43,413 nt of DNA from assembly GCA_030606765.1 (NCBI GenBank), contig JAUWFX010000003.1:1-43413 (forward strand). Reading direction: 5' to 3'. Both the position numbers and the translations under genes were made by a program. Under the pieces are notes generated by a model. The model made no database searches. It had not been told where the DNA came from and saw only the letters and a list, made by a program, of their open reading frames with translations. Positions 2,827 to 30,408 of the stretch are shown here, piece by piece. Position 1 is the first letter of the stretch. Each line of letters opens with the position of its first letter. This stretch comes from Dehalococcoidia bacterium (GTDB lineage Bacteria > Chloroflexota > Dehalococcoidia > GIF9 > AB-539-J10).

Positions 2827-4179
2827 ATGACAGAAGATATTATAACACAGGACGAAAAGGCTACACAGGAAACCGAAAGGACTATACCTAAAATTGATAA
2901 AAACCTATCATTAGATACAACGTACAATGAGTTACCTATCATAAAGGACGAACCTGGCCACATTGCGTTTATCTGGCGCGGGTATCGCTTGCTAGTGGAT
3001 GCCACTCACTTTGACGATAAGGGCCGAGCCGAACTATCCTTTTGGTATGACGATGGGGAAACAGGACGCACACAATTATTGACACAAAGACAGGTTAATT
3101 TACTCTCGTCGTCAAATACAGGAAGCCTTCTTAGAGAACTACGGGACGGTAGCGTTGCCAGTTATCTATATCTTCCCTGGGATTGGGTACTGACGTGTAT
3201 CACATATCAAGTTATTAAAACTGCCCGGCATGATGAACCAATACTCGAAATTGCATCAAACCCTGATATCGTGCTGACACCTGACTATCTTTTAACGCCG
3301 ATTCTGTATCGAAATCACCCTAACATTATCTTTGGCGATTATGGTAGCGGAAAAAGCCTAACTGCCTTAGTCTGTGCATTTATCGTACAATTGCCATATC
3401 CCGATAATAAACTTGGTTTGGCCCCAAGTGAAAAACCGTGTTTCTGCCTATATCTTGACTATGAGGATGAGGAATCAAGTTTTACCAAACGCTGGACGGC
3501 AATCCAAAGAGGATTCCATGTGAGAGACGAACTAGACATGACCATATTCTATAAGCGAATGACTGCCAGTTTGATAGATTCAGTAGAACCGCTAAGGCAA
3601 GAGATAATCGATAGGCATATTGGGCTATTAGTAGTGGACAGTTTAGGGCCAGCAGCCCGAGGAAATCTCAACGACCCCGAACCAGCGATACAGTACCACC
3701 AAGCATTGCGAGCCCTAGGAGTAACGAGCCTCACCTTGGCTCATAACTCAAAGGATTTACTGACAAAGAAAAAGAGTATATTTGGCTCAGTATTCTTCTC
3801 AAACTTGGCACGCTCAATTTGGGAATGTAAAGCAGAACAAGAACCAATTGACAACGAACTAACTATTAGTCTTAAACAAGTCAAAGCGAGCCTCTCAGAA
3901 CGATACTCAGGGTTTGGTTATAGATACACGTTTAACAATGAAACCAATGCCATAGCCATAGAGAAGGTAGATTTGAGAGGCACGAGCCTATCAGGTGAAC
4001 TACCGCTATTAGTACAGATTAAAAACCTACTACGGAACGGGGCCATGCCGGTTAAAGAAATAGCCGAAGCCTTAGAAGCTAATGAGGGCTCGGTTAAAGT
4101 TACCGTAAATCGTTTGGCTAAAAAGGAAGTAGGGGGAACAGTCAAGATGGGAGACTTATGGGGGCTGAAGGAATTATGA
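2827..4179 (+). CDS. RepA-like RecA-fold ATPase with C-terminal winged helix (450 aa)
   Basis: A RecA/KaiC-type ATPase of the AAA_25 or RepA replicative-helicase class. Walker A is GDYGSGKS (about 170-177), a second acidic block YLDYEDE lies at 209-215, and Walker B is LLVVDS (267-272), followed by the sensor-like SLTLAHNSKD. The last 60 residues look like a helix-turn-helix (PVKEIAEALEANEGSVKVTVNRLAKK). The gene ends six bases before a dense iteron array, so it is the best candidate for the replication initiator or loader of this element. The primase-helicase on the other strand (6036-8423) would act with it. Confidence 0.8.
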   Translation: MTEDIITQDEKATQETERTIPKIDKNLSLDTTYNELPIIKDEPGHIAFIWRGYRLLVDATHFDDKGRAELSFWYDDGETGRTQLLTQRQVNLLSSSNTGSLLRELRDGSVASYLYLPWDWVLTCITYQVIKTARHDEPILEIASNPDIVLTPDYLLTPILYRNHPNIIFGDYGSGKSLTALVCAFIVQLPYPDNKLGLAPSEKPCFCLYLDYEDEESSFTKRWTAIQRGFHVRDELDMTIFYKRMTASLIDSVEPLRQEIIDRHIGLLVVDSLGPAARGNLNDPEPAIQYHQALRALGVTSLTLAHNSKDLLTKKKSIFGSVFFSNLARSIWECKAEQEPIDNELTISLKQVKASLSERYSGFGYRYTFNNETNAIAIEKVDLRGTSLSGELPLLVQIKNLLRNGAMPVKEIAEALEANEGSVKVTVNRLAKKEVGGTVKMGDLWGLKEL

Positions 4180-26623: not shown

Positions 26624-27490
26624 ATGGCCACAGCAAACGAAATCAAATTCCGCAGAGATACCAGTTTCCGTAAGGCAGTATTCAGCCCAGACAGTTTCGC
26701 TCATCCGGCCAAGATGGATGCCCAGCTCCTACTCTGGATTGTAGATCAGTACACAAAGCCAGGGGATACCATTCTGGACCCAATGGCCGGCTCAGGGACA
26801 GCAACGCTAGGGTGTCCCATCGGGCGAAATGTAGTCCAAGTTGAGCTAGAAAAGAAGTTTGTGGATATGCAAGAGGCCAACTGGGAGAAGGTAAGGATGA
26901 TGCCCCAGCTCGGCCATGAGATGGGAGACTGTAGGATTATCCAAGGAGATGCTAGACAGCTTGAAGGGATACTGGCAGACTCCATAATCACCAGCCCGCC
27001 TTACGCAGAGGCGCAAGAAGGTGCGGGTATAGCAAGACGGGGATATCAGGGTCCAAAACATGGCCCGACTGACTTGATTGGCAAGCGTTCTTATATGCCC
27101 AATGTCCATGGTGAAAGCGATGGGCAAATTGGCAATCTCCCTTATGGTTCAATCGACTCGGTGATAACAAGTCCGCCGTATGAGGCTTCTGTGTCCGATG
27201 ATAAAGAAAGCCCACTCGCCGACGGTAATAAAGAGAAATACGGACGCTGGAAAGATGGAACAGCCAAGAAAACAAGTTACACTCAACACGGTGAGCCAGT
27301 TGACTCCATCATAACCTCACCACCGTATGAAGGCAGCATCCAAGGGGTGCCAGGGATTGACTGGACAAAGATGGCTGGAGGATCCCGAGACATGTCAAAG
27401 GAGGCAGCCAATAGCACACGAATTGCTAGTCTGTCGGGCTATTCTGCGGGTGCAGACAACATAGGAAATTTAGGTAGTGGGTCAATTTGA
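26624..27490 (+). pseudogene. DNA methyltransferase, 5' part, interrupted by transposon
   Basis: Motif I DPMAGSGTATLG is at about residues 46-57. Then the catalytic-type motif ITSPPY occurs three times (ADSIITSPPYAEAQ, IDSVITSPPYEAS, VDSIITSPPYEGS), so this is an amino (N6A or N4C) methyltransferase. The native frame runs to codon 283 (27470-27472). It then enters the transposon end and stops at TGA 27488-27490. The missing C-terminus lies at 30109-30408. Removing the transposon and one target copy joins both in frame (382 aa). Confidence 0.9.
27465..27472. repeat. Target-site duplication, left copy (GAAATTTA)
   Basis: GAAATTTA directly precedes the transposon's left inverted repeat and recurs at 30101-30108 directly after the right one. 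An 8-bp duplication is in the range known for IS1-type transposases. Confidence 0.93.
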
Positions 27491-27492
27491 AA
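27473..27492 (+). repeat. Left terminal inverted repeat of the transposon
   Basis: GGTAGTGGGTCAATTTGAAA, identical to the reverse complement of 30081-30100. It contains the stop codon of the interrupted methyltransferase and, right at its inner edge, the start of the HExxH gene. Confidence 0.93.
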
Positions 27493-27783
27493 ATGAACAA
27501 CATGGGTGCTATTACCAAAGAACAAGCTGAGGCATTCGCTACTCATGTGCTCGAAGAGCTCTGCCTAAATTGGAAGATGAAGTGGACTAGAGCTCAACCC
27601 GGAATTTGTCTCAAGAAGAGCCAGGAGATACTCATTCCGAAGAGTATGATTGGACAATACCCGTGGGTGGCAAAGGAATATGTTCTGCATGAAGCCGCTC
27701 ATATCTTCACAGATGACAATGTCCATGGTGAGGAGTTCTACAAGTCGTATATTGCTCTCTTGGGGAGATTTATGCTAGAGTAG
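27493..27783 (+). CDS. SprT-like / HExxH putative metallopeptidase, transposon passenger (96 aa)
   Basis: The motif VLHEAAHIF (HExxH) is preceded by a Trp/Cys strand region and followed by HGEEFYKSYIALL, the order seen in small SprT/WLM-type zinc peptidase domains. ATG 27493 is the first base inside the terminal repeat edge; an in-frame TTG at 27487 lies within the repeat. The host gene's stop (27488-27490) overlaps this start, so translation could be coupled to whatever gene the element lands in. Proteolytic activity is unproven. Confidence 0.7.
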   Translation: MNNMGAITKEQAEAFATHVLEELCLNWKMKWTRAQPGICLKKSQEILIPKSMIGQYPWVAKEYVLHEAAHIFTDDNVHGEEFYKSYIALLGRFMLE

Positions 27784-27899
27784 ATATCTGAGCGGATAGT
27801 CATCGGCGAGGACATAGCAGGTAAACAAGCCATCAAGTTTGTCCTCGCCGACAATTGCGGAGTGGGGGTAGAGAAATTGCACTTCTCTACCCCTGCACA

Positions 27900-28148
27900 C
27901 TAGAGGAAGATGTAGACGTAGTCCGCATCACCGCCACCACCAATATCACCCTGCATACCTTTAGCTATGAAATGAGCTTCGATTCTTCTAGCAACCAGCT
28001 CAGTGGTAGCATTCCACTGATACCATGTACTAGGATTGCCGTGTTCCCTCTTGCGACGAGTAGGACTATCGGTTACTCCGATAGTCCAAGCAGAGTAACG
28101 ACCAACAATCTTTGTAATGGCTGCCTTTATGTCTGCTTCTGATGCCAT
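27900..28148 (-). CDS. Conserved hypothetical protein, possibly GIY-YIG-related (82 aa)
   Basis: Very good Shine-Dalgarno (AAAGGAGGTGAT) before ATG 28148. The text WTIGVTDSPTRRKREHGNP recalls the IG-x-T-x-RR core of GIY-YIG folds. It ends with a Gly-rich turn (GDIGGGGDADYVYIF). The catalytic Tyr and Glu of true GIY-YIG nucleases are not evident, so this is a tentative link. Passenger gene just downstream of the transposase. Confidence 0.6.
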   Translation of the reverse strand: MASEADIKAAITKIVGRYSAWTIGVTDSPTRRKREHGNPSTWYQWNATTELVARRIEAHFIAKGMQGDIGGGGDADYVYIFL

Positions 28149-28167
28149 CTATAATCACCTCCTTTCT

Positions 28168-29004
28168 CTAAATTACTAATCGGACTATTTCATCGACCGT
28201 CCAGACATGATTGCTTATTCCTGCTGCCATTGCTGGCGTTCTATGACATGGATTAGCTAACGATATATGTGGTCTGGCAAAGTTATAATGCATGAAGTGA
28301 AGAGCTACGGCATATTCTAGGTTCTCTACCTTCTTTGAGAAGCCATTAGTTAGCCTAGTAAATCGCCTCATACTCATTCGCATTGTAAGATTCTGCCGTT
28401 CAATATAGCTTGTAGATGCTCTTGTCATGTCGGGAGAACCTTTTATCAGCTTCGCTTTTGCTTGAATACATTTTGGTGGGCTATAGCGTCCATATTCCTC
28501 TCGTGTGTTACCGTAGTATTTAACTAGCATGGCGTAATCTATATCATTGCCAAAAGCATGGTTCACTGCCTCATAATACATTCTATGTCCGTCAGTAGTG
28601 AGTTGAACACGATTTGAAAGACGTTCCTTAATATCCTTGGCGAACTCATAGGCATGTTCTAGTTCACGTAAACCAACTAGCCAGCTTAAAACTAACTTCG
28701 TGTCGGCATCAAGTGCTACGAATGTCCAAACATCGCCATACCCGAATTGCCCGTATTTATCTCTAGGAACATTCTTCTCTTTGGCATAACAAAATGACCA
28801 GATTTCATCACATTCGATACGCTTGCATGGTAAATTCCTTAGATTATTATCCTGATACTCAGCACAGGCTCTACCAACATCACGTAAAAGCCTAATAACT
28901 GTACCCTTTGCTGTATTTGTTATTCTGCAAGTGGCGAGTATTGAGTTCCCTTCAACAAGGGCTTTTATCACTTGCGTTCTTTTCTCAATACTTAACTTGT
29001 TCAT
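28168..29004 (-). CDS. IS1-type DDE transposase (278 aa)
   Basis: Single-frame IS1-like transposase. N-terminal HTH (GNSILATCRITNTAKGTVIRLL), then the DDE core with IECDEIWSF (first Asp), LDADTKLVLSW, TTDGHRMYYEAV (second Asp) and SYIERQNLTMRM (Glu), ending NFARPHISL ... TPAMAAGI. I chose ATG 29004 because a consensus promoter's -10 lies at 29011-29016, so the upstream ATG (29019) would be outside the transcript. No -1 frameshift is needed, unlike E. coli IS1. Confidence 0.9.
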   Translation of the reverse strand: MNKLSIEKRTQVIKALVEGNSILATCRITNTAKGTVIRLLRDVGRACAEYQDNNLRNLPCKRIECDEIWSFCYAKEKNVPRDKYGQFGYGDVWTFVALDADTKLVLSWLVGLRELEHAYEFAKDIKERLSNRVQLTTDGHRMYYEAVNHAFGNDIDYAMLVKYYGNTREEYGRYSPPKCIQAKAKLIKGSPDMTRASTSYIERQNLTMRMSMRRFTRLTNGFSKKVENLEYAVALHFMHYNFARPHISLANPCHRTPAMAAGISNHVWTVDEIVRLVI

Positions 29005-29010
29005 GCTTAT

Positions 29011-29039
29011 ATTATACATGACCGCTCAAGCATTGTCAA
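29011..29039 (-). promoter_or_regulatory. Consensus sigma70 promoter of the transposase
   Basis: On the minus strand TTGACA (29039-29034), 17 bases, TATAAT (29016-29011). The predicted start of transcription is within a few bases of ATG 29004, so the message would be leaderless or nearly so. Confidence 0.85.
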
Positions 29040-29055
29040 TAGGTAAACGGGTTAT

Positions 29056-29523
29056 TTACACAATATTTTTAGGAAATGTGGGTTGAGTACCTAGAAGTCG
29101 AAATTCACCAGGGGCACTTTTCTTGAATATCCCTGCCTCAACCATAGCTACAGTAAGAGCGTAGACAATGCGATATGCTTGCATCCTAGATTTGGTCTTC
29201 ATAATTCGATAGGTATAGAGAGTATTAGCTGCCTCTCCAATTTTTAGCACTCCGTTATTTTGTTCGGCTATTCGCTTTATTCGTTCCTTATGATTTTGCT
29301 GATTGATAAGAAGTTCCCTCATATCCGGCCGTACAGTTTCCCGTCGCCCGGTTCTGCGGAAGTGAACTGCCAAAGCTGTACTAAAAGCTTCAGCCTCATG
29401 CGCCAAGGCATCTCTTTTTGCTTGTATTTCTTCCAAACGCTTGTCAACATCCGCAAGTTCCGTTTGGATTTCTGCCAGATATTTTCGTGTTTCTTCTTCC
29501 CAAGCATGATTTCCTATGACCAT
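29056..29523 (-). CDS. Coiled-coil passenger protein (155 aa)
   Basis: AAAGGAGGTATAAAA precedes ATG 29523. Residues 8-50 form a heptad-like coiled coil rich in Glu, Leu and Lys (YLAEIQTELADVDKRLEEI). The C-terminal half looks like a winged-helix or small helical domain (IGEAANTLYTYRIMKTKSRM ... GIFKKSAPGEFRLL). It lies upstream of the transposase in the same direction and may be an accessory transposition protein. No family recognised. Confidence 0.65.
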   Translation of the reverse strand: MVIGNHAWEEETRKYLAEIQTELADVDKRLEEIQAKRDALAHEAEAFSTALAVHFRRTGRRETVRPDMRELLINQQNHKERIKRIAEQNNGVLKIGEAANTLYTYRIMKTKSRMQAYRIVYALTVAMVEAGIFKKSAPGEFRLLGTQPTFPKNIV

Positions 29524-29614
29524 TTTTATACCTCCTTTATATTTAGTATTACCTAAACTATTCTTGGACTTGACTTCATCTACGCATATAATGCTTGACT
29601 ATAAGTAGTTGGGC

Positions 29615-29697
29615 GGAAGGTAGCGGAATTGAACCACAGCGGGTGAACGCTCGAAGGTTAGTAAGACCTTGTCCTCTACCAAGAGGCAATACCTTCC
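29615..29697 (-). tRNA. tRNA-like gene, allo-tRNA type (8/4 fold), anticodon UAC
   Basis: 83 nt, read 5' to 3' on the minus strand. Acceptor GGAAGGTA/TACCTTCC pairs over 8 bp. D stem CCTC/GAGG with loop TTGGTA. Anticodon stem AAGGT/ACCTT with loop CTTACTA (T33, anticodon TAC). Variable arm AGCG-TTCACC-CGCT. T stem GTGG/CCGC (4 bp, one G-T) with loop TTCAATT. Next base is G; CCA is not encoded. A 7/5 reading leaves a T-T mismatch, so 8/4 is better. Long variable arm and G73 suggest serine identity, which conflicts with the valine anticodon. Confidence 0.75.
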
Positions 29698-29707
29698 ACG
29701 CAAATAT

Positions 29708-29742
29708 AAAAGGGTAAGGAGTGACCAGCTCATTACCCTTTT
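29708..29742. terminator. Hairpin between the 79-aa gene and the tRNA-like gene
   Basis: AAAAGGGTAA (29708-29717) and TTACCCTTTT (29733-29742) make ten perfect base pairs with a 15-base loop. A run of A or T at either end fits a bidirectional intrinsic terminator. It ends 10 bases upstream of the tRNA-like gene on the minus strand. Confidence 0.65.
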
Positions 29743-29793
29743 ATGTTATACCCTTTGGTGGTAGAAGTCAATCCCCCAATTACATAAACTGGG

Positions 29794-30033
29794 TTATCTT
29801 TTCCACCGAGCTTCGGCAGCTTTCTTGGCTATCTCTTTTCTTCGTTCGGGTGTTAACTTACTAGCCCTAGCCTTTCCGCCTTTTAGACCACCAAGACGAC
29901 CTAGAGCCACAGCAGCGGGGTTTTTAGTGCTATCTTCAGGCGTTGGTGTAGCTTCTCCCGTAGCTTCTTCTACAATCTGAGAAGCCAAGACGTTTATATC
30001 TCTGGGTTTCTTTTTGCTTGAACGCTTAGGCAT
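29794..30033 (-). CDS. Small basic KGG-type passenger protein (79 aa)
   Basis: N-terminal Lys/Arg/Ser block, then the well-spread block NPAAVALGRLGGLKGGKARA, then LTPERRKEIAKKAAEARW at the C-terminus. Small proteins with this ending are found in many bacteria with unknown function and look like DNA-binding or stress-type KGG proteins. First gene inside the right end of the transposon, facing inward. Confidence 0.7.
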   Translation of the reverse strand: MPKRSSKKKPRDINVLASQIVEEATGEATPTPEDSTKNPAAVALGRLGGLKGGKARASKLTPERRKEIAKKAAEARWKR

Positions 30034-30080
30034 ACCTTAAGTATACCATATAGCTCCCAATAAGCTGTCAAGTTTTTAAA

Positions 30081-30100
30081 TTTCAAATTGACCCACTACC
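30081..30100 (-). repeat. Right terminal inverted repeat of the transposon
   Basis: TTTCAAATTGACCCACTACC, the perfect reverse complement of the left end at 27473-27492. Confidence 0.93.
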
Positions 30101-30108
30101 GAAATTTA
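30101..30108. repeat. Target-site duplication, right copy (GAAATTTA)
   Basis: Identical to 27465-27472 and directly next to the right inverted repeat. Confidence 0.93.
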
Positions 30109-30408
30109 CGTGGTGAGACCTATTTATCCGCTATGCTTCGAGTTTACCAGCAATGCCATAAGGTACTCAAGCCTGATGGCCTTATGGTACTTGTTACTAA
30201 GAACTTTATCCGTGACAGAAAAGAGGTAAGGCTAGACGAGGACACGATAAGTCTATGCCAGAGGGCCGGCTTTCGACTTATTGAACGCCATTGCAGAAAA
30301 CTGCCAGCGCAATCATTTTGGCGAACCATCTACCAGCAAAAATACCCCGAGGCACCGGTTTTGGATAAGGAAGACATTTTGGTATTCCAAAAGATTCCAC
30401 AATTTTAG
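30109..30408 (+). pseudogene. DNA methyltransferase, 3' part, separated by transposon
   Basis: Continues the frame of 26624-27472. The joined text reads NIGNL then RGETYLSAMLRVY, then QCHKVLKPDGLMVLVTKNFIRD, the typical C-terminal Rossmann strands of amino methyltransferases. There is no start codon or ribosome-binding site at its beginning, so it is probably untranslated while the transposon is present. Ends TAG at 30406-30408. Confidence 0.88.

Follow-up and report, generated by a model that had tools for sequence, protein, structure and literature searches.

The locus described here raises the question of why a transposon should carry a tRNA-shaped gene whose anticodon does not match the body that bears it. 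The window, meaning the whole 43,413-nucleotide stretch of DNA that was analyzed, holds such a gene on the minus strand at 29615..29697 (5' end at 29697, 3' end at 29615), and its carriage by a transposon is confirmed as an observation. A cloverleaf can be read directly from the sequence: the acceptor pairs GGAAGGUA with UACCUUCC over 8 bp, the T stem pairs GUGG with CCGC over 4 bp including one U-G, the anticodon stem has 5 bp, the D loop has 6 nt, and a long variable arm carries a 4-bp stem (AGCG/CGCU). The anticodon is UAC with U at position 37; the discriminator, G73, lies at 29614 just past the 3' end and is followed by CCC, so CCA is not encoded. The 8/4 acceptor/T branch, the long variable arm, UAC, U37, and G73 had been proposed in a preliminary description of the gene, as had the need for a mismatch (U49-U65) in a standard 7/5 drawing, and all are borne out. 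The unconstrained minimum-energy fold (-30.3 kcal/mol) recovers the 8-bp acceptor, the 4-bp T stem, and the 4-bp variable stem, but gives a different D arm and an anticodon stem of 4 bp.

Model-based searches agree that the gene is tRNA-like but not ordinary. ARAGORN makes a single tRNA call in the 43-kb window, tRNA-Val(TAC) at 29612-29697. Rfam at its gathering thresholds gives no match to the gene; the top model by E-value is tRNA-Sec (RF01852), whose 42.4 bits (E 4.5e-7) fall short of its gathering score, 47. The general tRNA model RF00005 is absent from the Rfam matches, in a scan that keeps one best match per clan, and the gene was thus scored neither as an ordinary 7/5 tRNA nor as something other than a tRNA, the two results that the preliminary description had named as refuting it. 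A covariance model (R1) built from nine tRNAs of related elements, the window's excluded, scores the gene at 22.4 bits (E 3e-4), and the sole other match listed in the 43 kb has an E-value of 0.74. Although tRNA-Sec supplies the best Rfam model, the window tRNA differs in its UAC rather than UCA anticodon and in a branch of 12 bp rather than the 13 bp of tRNA-Sec. A phage-borne tRNA-Ser(CGA) lying outside the element at another locus (L023, 1495-1583) starts GGAAGGTA and ends TACTTTCCGCCA, resembling the window acceptor, so an 8-bp acceptor may also occur in an otherwise ordinary phage tRNA-Ser.

The vehicle is an IS1-family transposon of 2,628 bp at 27473..30100, with the transposase and the tRNA both on the minus strand. 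Its terminal inverted repeats (GGTAGTGGGTCAATTTGAAA... at 27473..27497, and the opposite end at 30076..30100) are identical at 23 of 25 positions and wholly identical over the terminal 17 bp, and they are flanked by a perfect 8-bp target-site duplication (GAAATTTA) at 27465..27472 and 30101..30108. All three IS1-family features are present, namely a PF03400 transposase above its cut-off, inverted ends that begin with GGT (which we take to be IS1-like), and the 8-bp duplication; the departure from other IS1-family elements with passenger genes is that the cargo here is a tRNA gene. The element landed in an N6/N4 DNA methylase gene. Deleting it together with one duplication gives an empty site with a 382-aa open reading frame; with the element in place, 288 aa are open. 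The N-terminal part of the methylase (26624..27490 as listed, plus strand, methylase sequence to 27472) matches PF01555 at 47.7 bits, over the cut-off, and the C-terminal part (30109..30408, plus strand), whose frame is restored in the empty site, matches at 17.7 bits (E 0.0038, below cut-off). The transposon context, as had been suggested, is correct, and the ends give it bounds.

The transposase (28168..29019, minus strand; 283 aa as listed, likely ATG at 29004) scores 26.0 bits with PF03400 against a cut-off of 24.1 and has at least 8,000 homologues. A promoter-like site with 12 of 12 consensus matches (TTGACA-17-TATAAT, 29011..29039, minus strand) precedes it; an mRNA from this site would begin about at the ATG and might therefore lack a leader. 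Here and in some relatives the site is overlapped by a palindrome resembling TGCTTGANCGNTCAAGCA. Between the tRNA and the transposase lies a gene for a 155-aa protein (29056..29523, minus strand), read as a probable coiled coil with a winged-helix-like end. It belongs to a set of 66 proteins at 48-100% identity, itself included, with no relatives in viral contigs or plasmids, and in a sample of 400 genomes of a single phylum one, G154, had a relative, at locus L220. There, a copy 28-30% identical sits between a Ser-like tRNA and the transposase in a window-like order, overlapping the start of the transposase match, and the L220 transposase reading is incomplete and contains a stop.

Three further open reading frames fill the element. 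A 79-aa basic, histone-H1-like protein (29794..30033, minus strand) has at least 7,963 matches, one of which is named histone H1 in one source. A similar 82-aa frame lies near the left end of L005 and a remnant in L030, and the protein is possibly an accessory transposition protein. The passengers are a SprT-like small metallopeptidase-like frame (27487..27783, plus strand; PF10263 E 5.5e-4, below the curated cut-off) and an 82-aa frame (27900..28148, minus strand) with no Pfam match above cut-off. Outside the transposon, the window encodes integrases, an S24-type repressor, a RecT-like protein, and a DNA primase, with one weak virion-protein match among the 20 window proteins scanned, and this gene content resembles that of a temperate phage or an integrative element.

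Related elements were gathered by transposase searches of viral contigs, of named genomes (best 80 of 575), and of genomes sampled by phylum, in which 15/251, 14/132, 26/247, 24/198, and 13/247 genomes had a transposase match at E 1e-50. The 356 loci obtained, the window included, reduced to 299 distinct transposases after 57 duplicates were dropped and to 281 of near-full length after a further 18. Recognizable ends were found in 161 of the 281, and ends with a target duplication in 133, again with the window included. A tRNA-like gene lies in or beside 42 of the 281; the 15% is the rate of this sample, since genome loci were drawn from the best matches (best 80 of 575; up to 30 per search), and the large number of relatives in viral contigs reflects the collection searched. 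Two loci stand outside the 42: L126, whose irregular gene is downstream on the other strand, and L298, whose tRNA-Val is ordinary and probably belongs to the host.

In 37 of the 42 positives the gene is upstream of the transposase and on its strand. ARAGORN and a cloverleaf scan together account for 35 tRNA-like genes in 33 elements at that place, for two upstream on the opposite strand, and for three and one downstream; in an earlier, smaller pass the cloverleaf scan found no tRNA-like genes in shuffled sequence. Five more elements (L065, L091, L257, L260, and L343) came from the covariance model, which was run on 293 of the 356 loci. The positives span many phyla, and among their named hosts are Zixibacteria, Aminicenantes, Acidobacteria, Chloroflexi, Proteobacteria, Deltaproteobacteria, and Nitrospira.

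What recurs is the place and not the particular tRNA. The 42 positives are scattered over the transposase tree, at a cost of 36 changes, and among close relatives the genes differ: UAU in L064, an 8/4 UAG gene (by eye) in L065, GCU in L139, and UAU in L299 within one group, and UUA in L030 beside UCG in L117 in another. L030 is a 1,323-bp element with an 8-bp duplication that retains the tRNA and the transposase; its sole further frame of at least 60 aa (on the tRNA and transposase strand, outside the transposase) is the histone-like remnant. The same tRNA, which the preliminary description proposed to look for beside IS1-like transposases in other genomes, was not found among related transposons with DNA examined, a set that lies outside the window element's close relatives (84-95% protein identity). 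The site upstream of the transposase is occupied instead by one mismatched tRNA or another from lineage to lineage, mostly 7/5 in the ARAGORN drawing. The exact D-arm pattern of the window tRNA gave no match in viral contigs, BLASTN gave none in Escherichia coli genomes, and phages returned four short chance-level matches with none at E 1e-5; conservation of the window tRNA as such in relatives, considered as a candidate, was set aside on these searches.

The mismatch between body and anticodon is a property of the family. Element tRNAs, their anticodon loops masked, were each set against 119 reference tRNAs taken from host genomes and from outside the elements; isotypes represented by one or two references were excluded, which left 114 of the 119 for the leave-one-out test. 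The count covered ARAGORN-called upstream tRNAs plus L099, and RNAs known only from our own scan or model were excluded. The nearest body isotype agreed with the anticodon isotype in one of 33 element tRNAs versus 91 of 114 references, where accuracy depended on isotype (Ser 14/14, Leu 15/15, Lys 0/4, Ile 0/4). Similarities for the element tRNAs are modest (0.38-0.59) and some assignments are not firm, the window's among them. Its nearest isotype is Ser at 0.40, followed closely by Cys at 0.36. The serine identity originally put forward keeps G73, the variable arm, and the nearest isotype on its side, with the closeness of Cys against it, and the Ser-like body is a predicted and not a firm assignment.

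Ser-like element bodies bear UAC, UAU, UAG, GUA, UCG, UGC, and UUC, and Leu-like bodies bear UUA, UGC, or CGC. Ten class I genes have GCU or ACU (L068, L078, L099, L139, L233, L239, L265, L286, L293, and L301), and all ten have A20. Nine of them were scored: Arg is nearest in five (L068, L078, L099, L265, and L286) and another isotype in the remaining four, two of which (L139 and L239) are in a near tie with Arg. A20 also occurs in L079 (CGU), L300 (UGC), and L343 (enlarged anticodon arm), so that 10 of 13 A20 bodies are GCU or ACU genes. Under what we take to be textbook identity elements, which underlie both the isotype and the charging readings, many of the element anticodons would be compatible with continued charging of the body type. 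Suppressor types are found as well, with UUA in L005, L030, and L310 and a four-base anticodon in L061.

In a set of nine Ser-like tRNAs from the elements, standard pairs make up 97.8% of pair cells, against 35-49% in slid controls; two-sided changes occur in 21 of 26 pairs, and all five helices covary. L128 and L284 keep a CGC anticodon while the variable stem has changed by compensation. Of 31 element tRNAs, 24 have U33 and 27 have a purine at position 37, versus 86 of 86 references for both, and the window tRNA itself has U37. These relaxed loops, as read from sequence, count against efficient decoding.

A second family-wide feature is an excess of signals for transcription across the tRNA in the opposite direction. 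In the window, a predicted antisense promoter (TGGACT-16-TATAAT, 29565..29592, plus strand; 10 of 12 matches, p 0.025 against its own shuffles) points into the tRNA 3' end. Just past the 5' end, a long hairpin (29703..29747, plus strand; 19-nt arms 89% complementary, p 0.016 against shuffles on both strands) is the predicted end of the antisense RNA. On the tRNA strand there is a promoter-like site at 29743..29771 (minus strand; TTGACT-17-TAACAT, 9 of 12 matches, p 0.005 against its own shuffles). A strict terminator scan of the window did not find the hairpin, and a looser score gives nearly equal values on the two strands, 44.1 and 43.6. The window's four promoter-like sites, compared with 2.2 +/- 1.4 in shuffles, are not remarkable, and taken by itself the window gives modest antisense signs.

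Across the family they are stronger. The pool comprised 38 elements, 37 of near-full length plus L293 with a partial transposase, and the antisense promoter was counted if a sigma70-like site no more than 75 nt from the tRNA 3' end exceeded its own shuffles at p<0.05. Such a promoter directed into the tRNA occurs in 20 of 38 elements (Fisher 1.4e-14), versus one of 38 when the stretch is read forwards and four of 72 ordinary tRNAs outside elements. Upstream sense promoters are weaker in the elements, with 8 of 38 element tRNAs at p<0.05 (Fisher 9e-4) versus 28 of 72 ordinary ones. Among six oddly placed element tRNAs, only the one in L065 has a significant antisense promoter. The hairpins upstream of element tRNAs look terminator-like on the opposite strand. 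With simple two-base block shuffles, 60 for each, the terminator score exceeds shuffles in 26 of 38 elements in the antisense direction and in 23 of 38 in the sense direction; it passes on both strands because one hairpin serves both readings. The antisense score is nevertheless the higher of the two in 32 of 38 (Wilcoxon 1.8e-6).

A complete leftward (antisense) promoter-to-terminator cassette is found in 25 of 41 tRNA-bearing versus 23 of 236 tRNA-less elements (p 3e-12), a count that omits 4 of 281 loci with fewer than 500 bases upstream and in which the tRNA stems could add to the terminator score. The mirror cassette is found in 5 of 41 and 11 of 236. The small share of tRNA-less elements with the antisense cassette led us to reject the idea that these signals are a general trait of the elements. 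Loops of leftward terminator-like hairpins left of the transposase contain GCCAAG in L005, L301, L310, L095, and L151, and such hairpins occur in elements with and without a tRNA.

The reading that we favor, tentatively and short of calling it probable, is that the Ser-like tRNA with its UAC anticodon and the RNA from the opposite strand form a predicted RNA-only, toxin-antitoxin-like module that aids persistence of the element. Charging of the tRNA would fall to an aminoacyl-tRNA synthetase indifferent to the anticodon (SerRS for the window; LeuRS, AlaRS, or, where C35 is kept, ArgRS elsewhere), and codons would then be misread. The antisense RNA would run from the promoter at the tRNA 3' end to the terminator past the 5' end, pair with the tRNA precursor, and block its maturation. 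If the element were lost, the cell would be harmed by miscoding, since the stable tRNA would outlive its labile antisense partner. A miscoding tRNA of any kind would fill the role, which is the proposed reason that close relatives carry different ones. This proposal would account for the mismatch, the exchange of tRNAs, the tying of the antisense cassette to the tRNA, and the indifference of the transposases to the codons read (below); by itself it does not explain the relaxed anticodon loops. Also weighing against it are the weaker sense promoters, hairpins that exceed their shuffles in the sense direction too, the cassette in 23 tRNA-less elements, the modest signs in the window, A20 bodies with anticodons other than GCU or ACU, and D-armless RNAs that are not mismatched.

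Several other explanations compete with such a module, and the most serious, though unlikely, leaves decoding out altogether. The processed tRNA, the hairpin, and the diverging promoter could together insulate the transposase from outside transcription. This would suit the position of the tRNA, upstream on the transposase strand in 33 elements, the strong promoter-like site that the transposase owns, and L009, where no tRNA was found and a promoter-to-terminator cassette nevertheless occupies the place. It leaves 32 of 33 disagreements between anticodon and nearest body unexplained, sits poorly with a cassette that tracks the tRNA, and does not fit the window and L117, where the promoter adjoins the tRNA though the transposase is about 600 bases away. 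Somewhat less likely again is a captured tRNA that is decaying without function. Relaxation at U33 and R37 and the scattered presence on the tree would be expected of such a gene, and an allo-tRNA(UAU) pseudogene overlapping a transposon frame in Edaphobacter C40 is mentioned in an excerpt of a review (PMC7609411). Decay is at odds with the covariation of all five helices, with the compensatory variable-stem change in L128 and L284 beside a constant CGC, and with promoter and terminator signals that are tied to the tRNA.

It is quite doubtful that the tRNA acts by recoding, so that a needed protein arises when certain codons of a gene in the element or the host receive the tRNA's amino acid. 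In E. coli, Leu codons were read as serine by allo-tRNAs (PMC7609411, in excerpt), and several element tRNAs are of suppressor type. In a codon-by-codon test that covered the transposases, with passenger genes outside its scope, the codons read were neither avoided nor enriched, 105 being observed and 93.8 expected over 26 elements. Individual elements showed enrichment (CTA in L077, p 0.008; ACT in L038, p 0.011; AGT in L286, p 0.038) or depletion (AGC in L233, p 0.027). Codons that the tRNAs would read occupy conserved residues of normal meaning in several transposases, and the ochre-type L005 and L030 have no in-frame TAA in theirs. L030, moreover, has hardly another gene, and the tRNAs differ between close relatives. 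Recoding of the transposase was rejected on the conserved residues and the missing TAA, and the overall count disposes of both a helper tRNA for rare transposase codons and their avoidance. Insertion of serine at valine codons by the window tRNA is possible from its sequence; adaptation of the transposase to it was not seen in the codon tests. Finally, phages often carry tRNAs, and the phage- or plasmid-like setting of the window would suit a decoy or replacement against anticodon nucleases or other translation-targeting defenses. We consider this improbable: a replacement is expected to keep its cognate anticodon, and one of 33 does.

The proposed tRNA and antisense RNA pair follows, by analogy, the logic of RNA-antitoxin systems. 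In type I and type VIII systems the antitoxin is an RNA, and in type VIII the toxin is as well. As far as partial sources on these systems go, the likeness lies in a gene that would do harm and faces a predicted antisense RNA, and the difference in the supposed toxin, here a predicted miscoding tRNA. Nonsense, missense, and frameshift suppressor tRNAs are familiar from laboratory genetics. The element tRNAs resemble them in joining a chargeable body to an altered anticodon or a loop of larger size (L005, L030, and L061), and differ in being natural, mobile, and recurrent in one transposon family.

The closest known kind is the allo-tRNAs (Mukai et al. 2017, through the review PMC7609411, seen in excerpt), for one group of which a link to transposons has been suggested and whose natural role that review still calls speculative. 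The window gene resembles them, as the excerpt describes them, in its 8/4 branch, long variable arm, and Ser-like body with a non-Ser anticodon; it differs in UAC with U37, in the 6-nt D loop, and in its seat within a bounded IS1-family element. The element family at large differs in being mostly 7/5 by ARAGORN and in including Leu, Arg, Gly, and Ala types. Among the open-licence papers listed, judged by titles and the beginnings of abstracts, no tRNA gene was found as IS1-family cargo, and neither, mostly by the same titles and beginnings, were an IS1 vehicle with defined ends, a range that takes in Leu, Arg, Gly, and Ala types, the measured mismatch, or the antisense cassette. The initial reading of the gene is partly supported overall; it did not include the mismatch across the family, the promoter and terminator signals for an antisense RNA, or the precise ends of the element.

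For the family as a whole, it is a real possibility, though less than probable, that this widespread IS1-like lineage uses miscoding tRNAs of any kind, whether missense, ochre, or frameshift in type, as the toxin of an RNA-only addiction module with a dedicated antisense RNA as antidote, and that at least some allo-tRNAs are its serine branch. Finding an allo-tRNA-type gene and dozens of mismatched tRNAs in one bounded transposon family shows what carries them and where they lie in the genome, and offers a role that can be tested. Were the antisense RNA an antidote, the tRNA would be a toxin and mobile DNA would have a new hold on its host through corruption of the genetic code. Should that role prove wrong, natural mobile suppressor-type tRNAs are still unexpected and could serve as scaffolds for genetic-code engineering.

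Some elements hold stranger RNAs. In L061, ARAGORN calls a gene at 3861-3935 with a four-base anticodon (tccc), a frameshift-suppressor type, to which L244 and a second RNA of L077 (3794-3862) are similar by eye. In L343 (3842-3939) the anticodon arm has been swapped for a far longer hairpin, in an element with ends and a duplication. D-armless, tRNA-like RNAs of about 70 nt lie upstream of the transposase in L061 (3781-3849), L079, L114, L212, L227, L228, L260, and L310. They have G3-U70, A73, and a long anticodon-like hairpin and resemble a minimal alanine tRNA, G3-U70 and A73 being presumably alanine signals. By loop reading, those of L061, L079, L212, L227, and L228 have Ala anticodons, and such D-armless RNAs are therefore not mismatched. 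In L061 and L228 the D-armless RNA stands in tandem with a second tRNA, while other elements hold D-armless RNAs alone.
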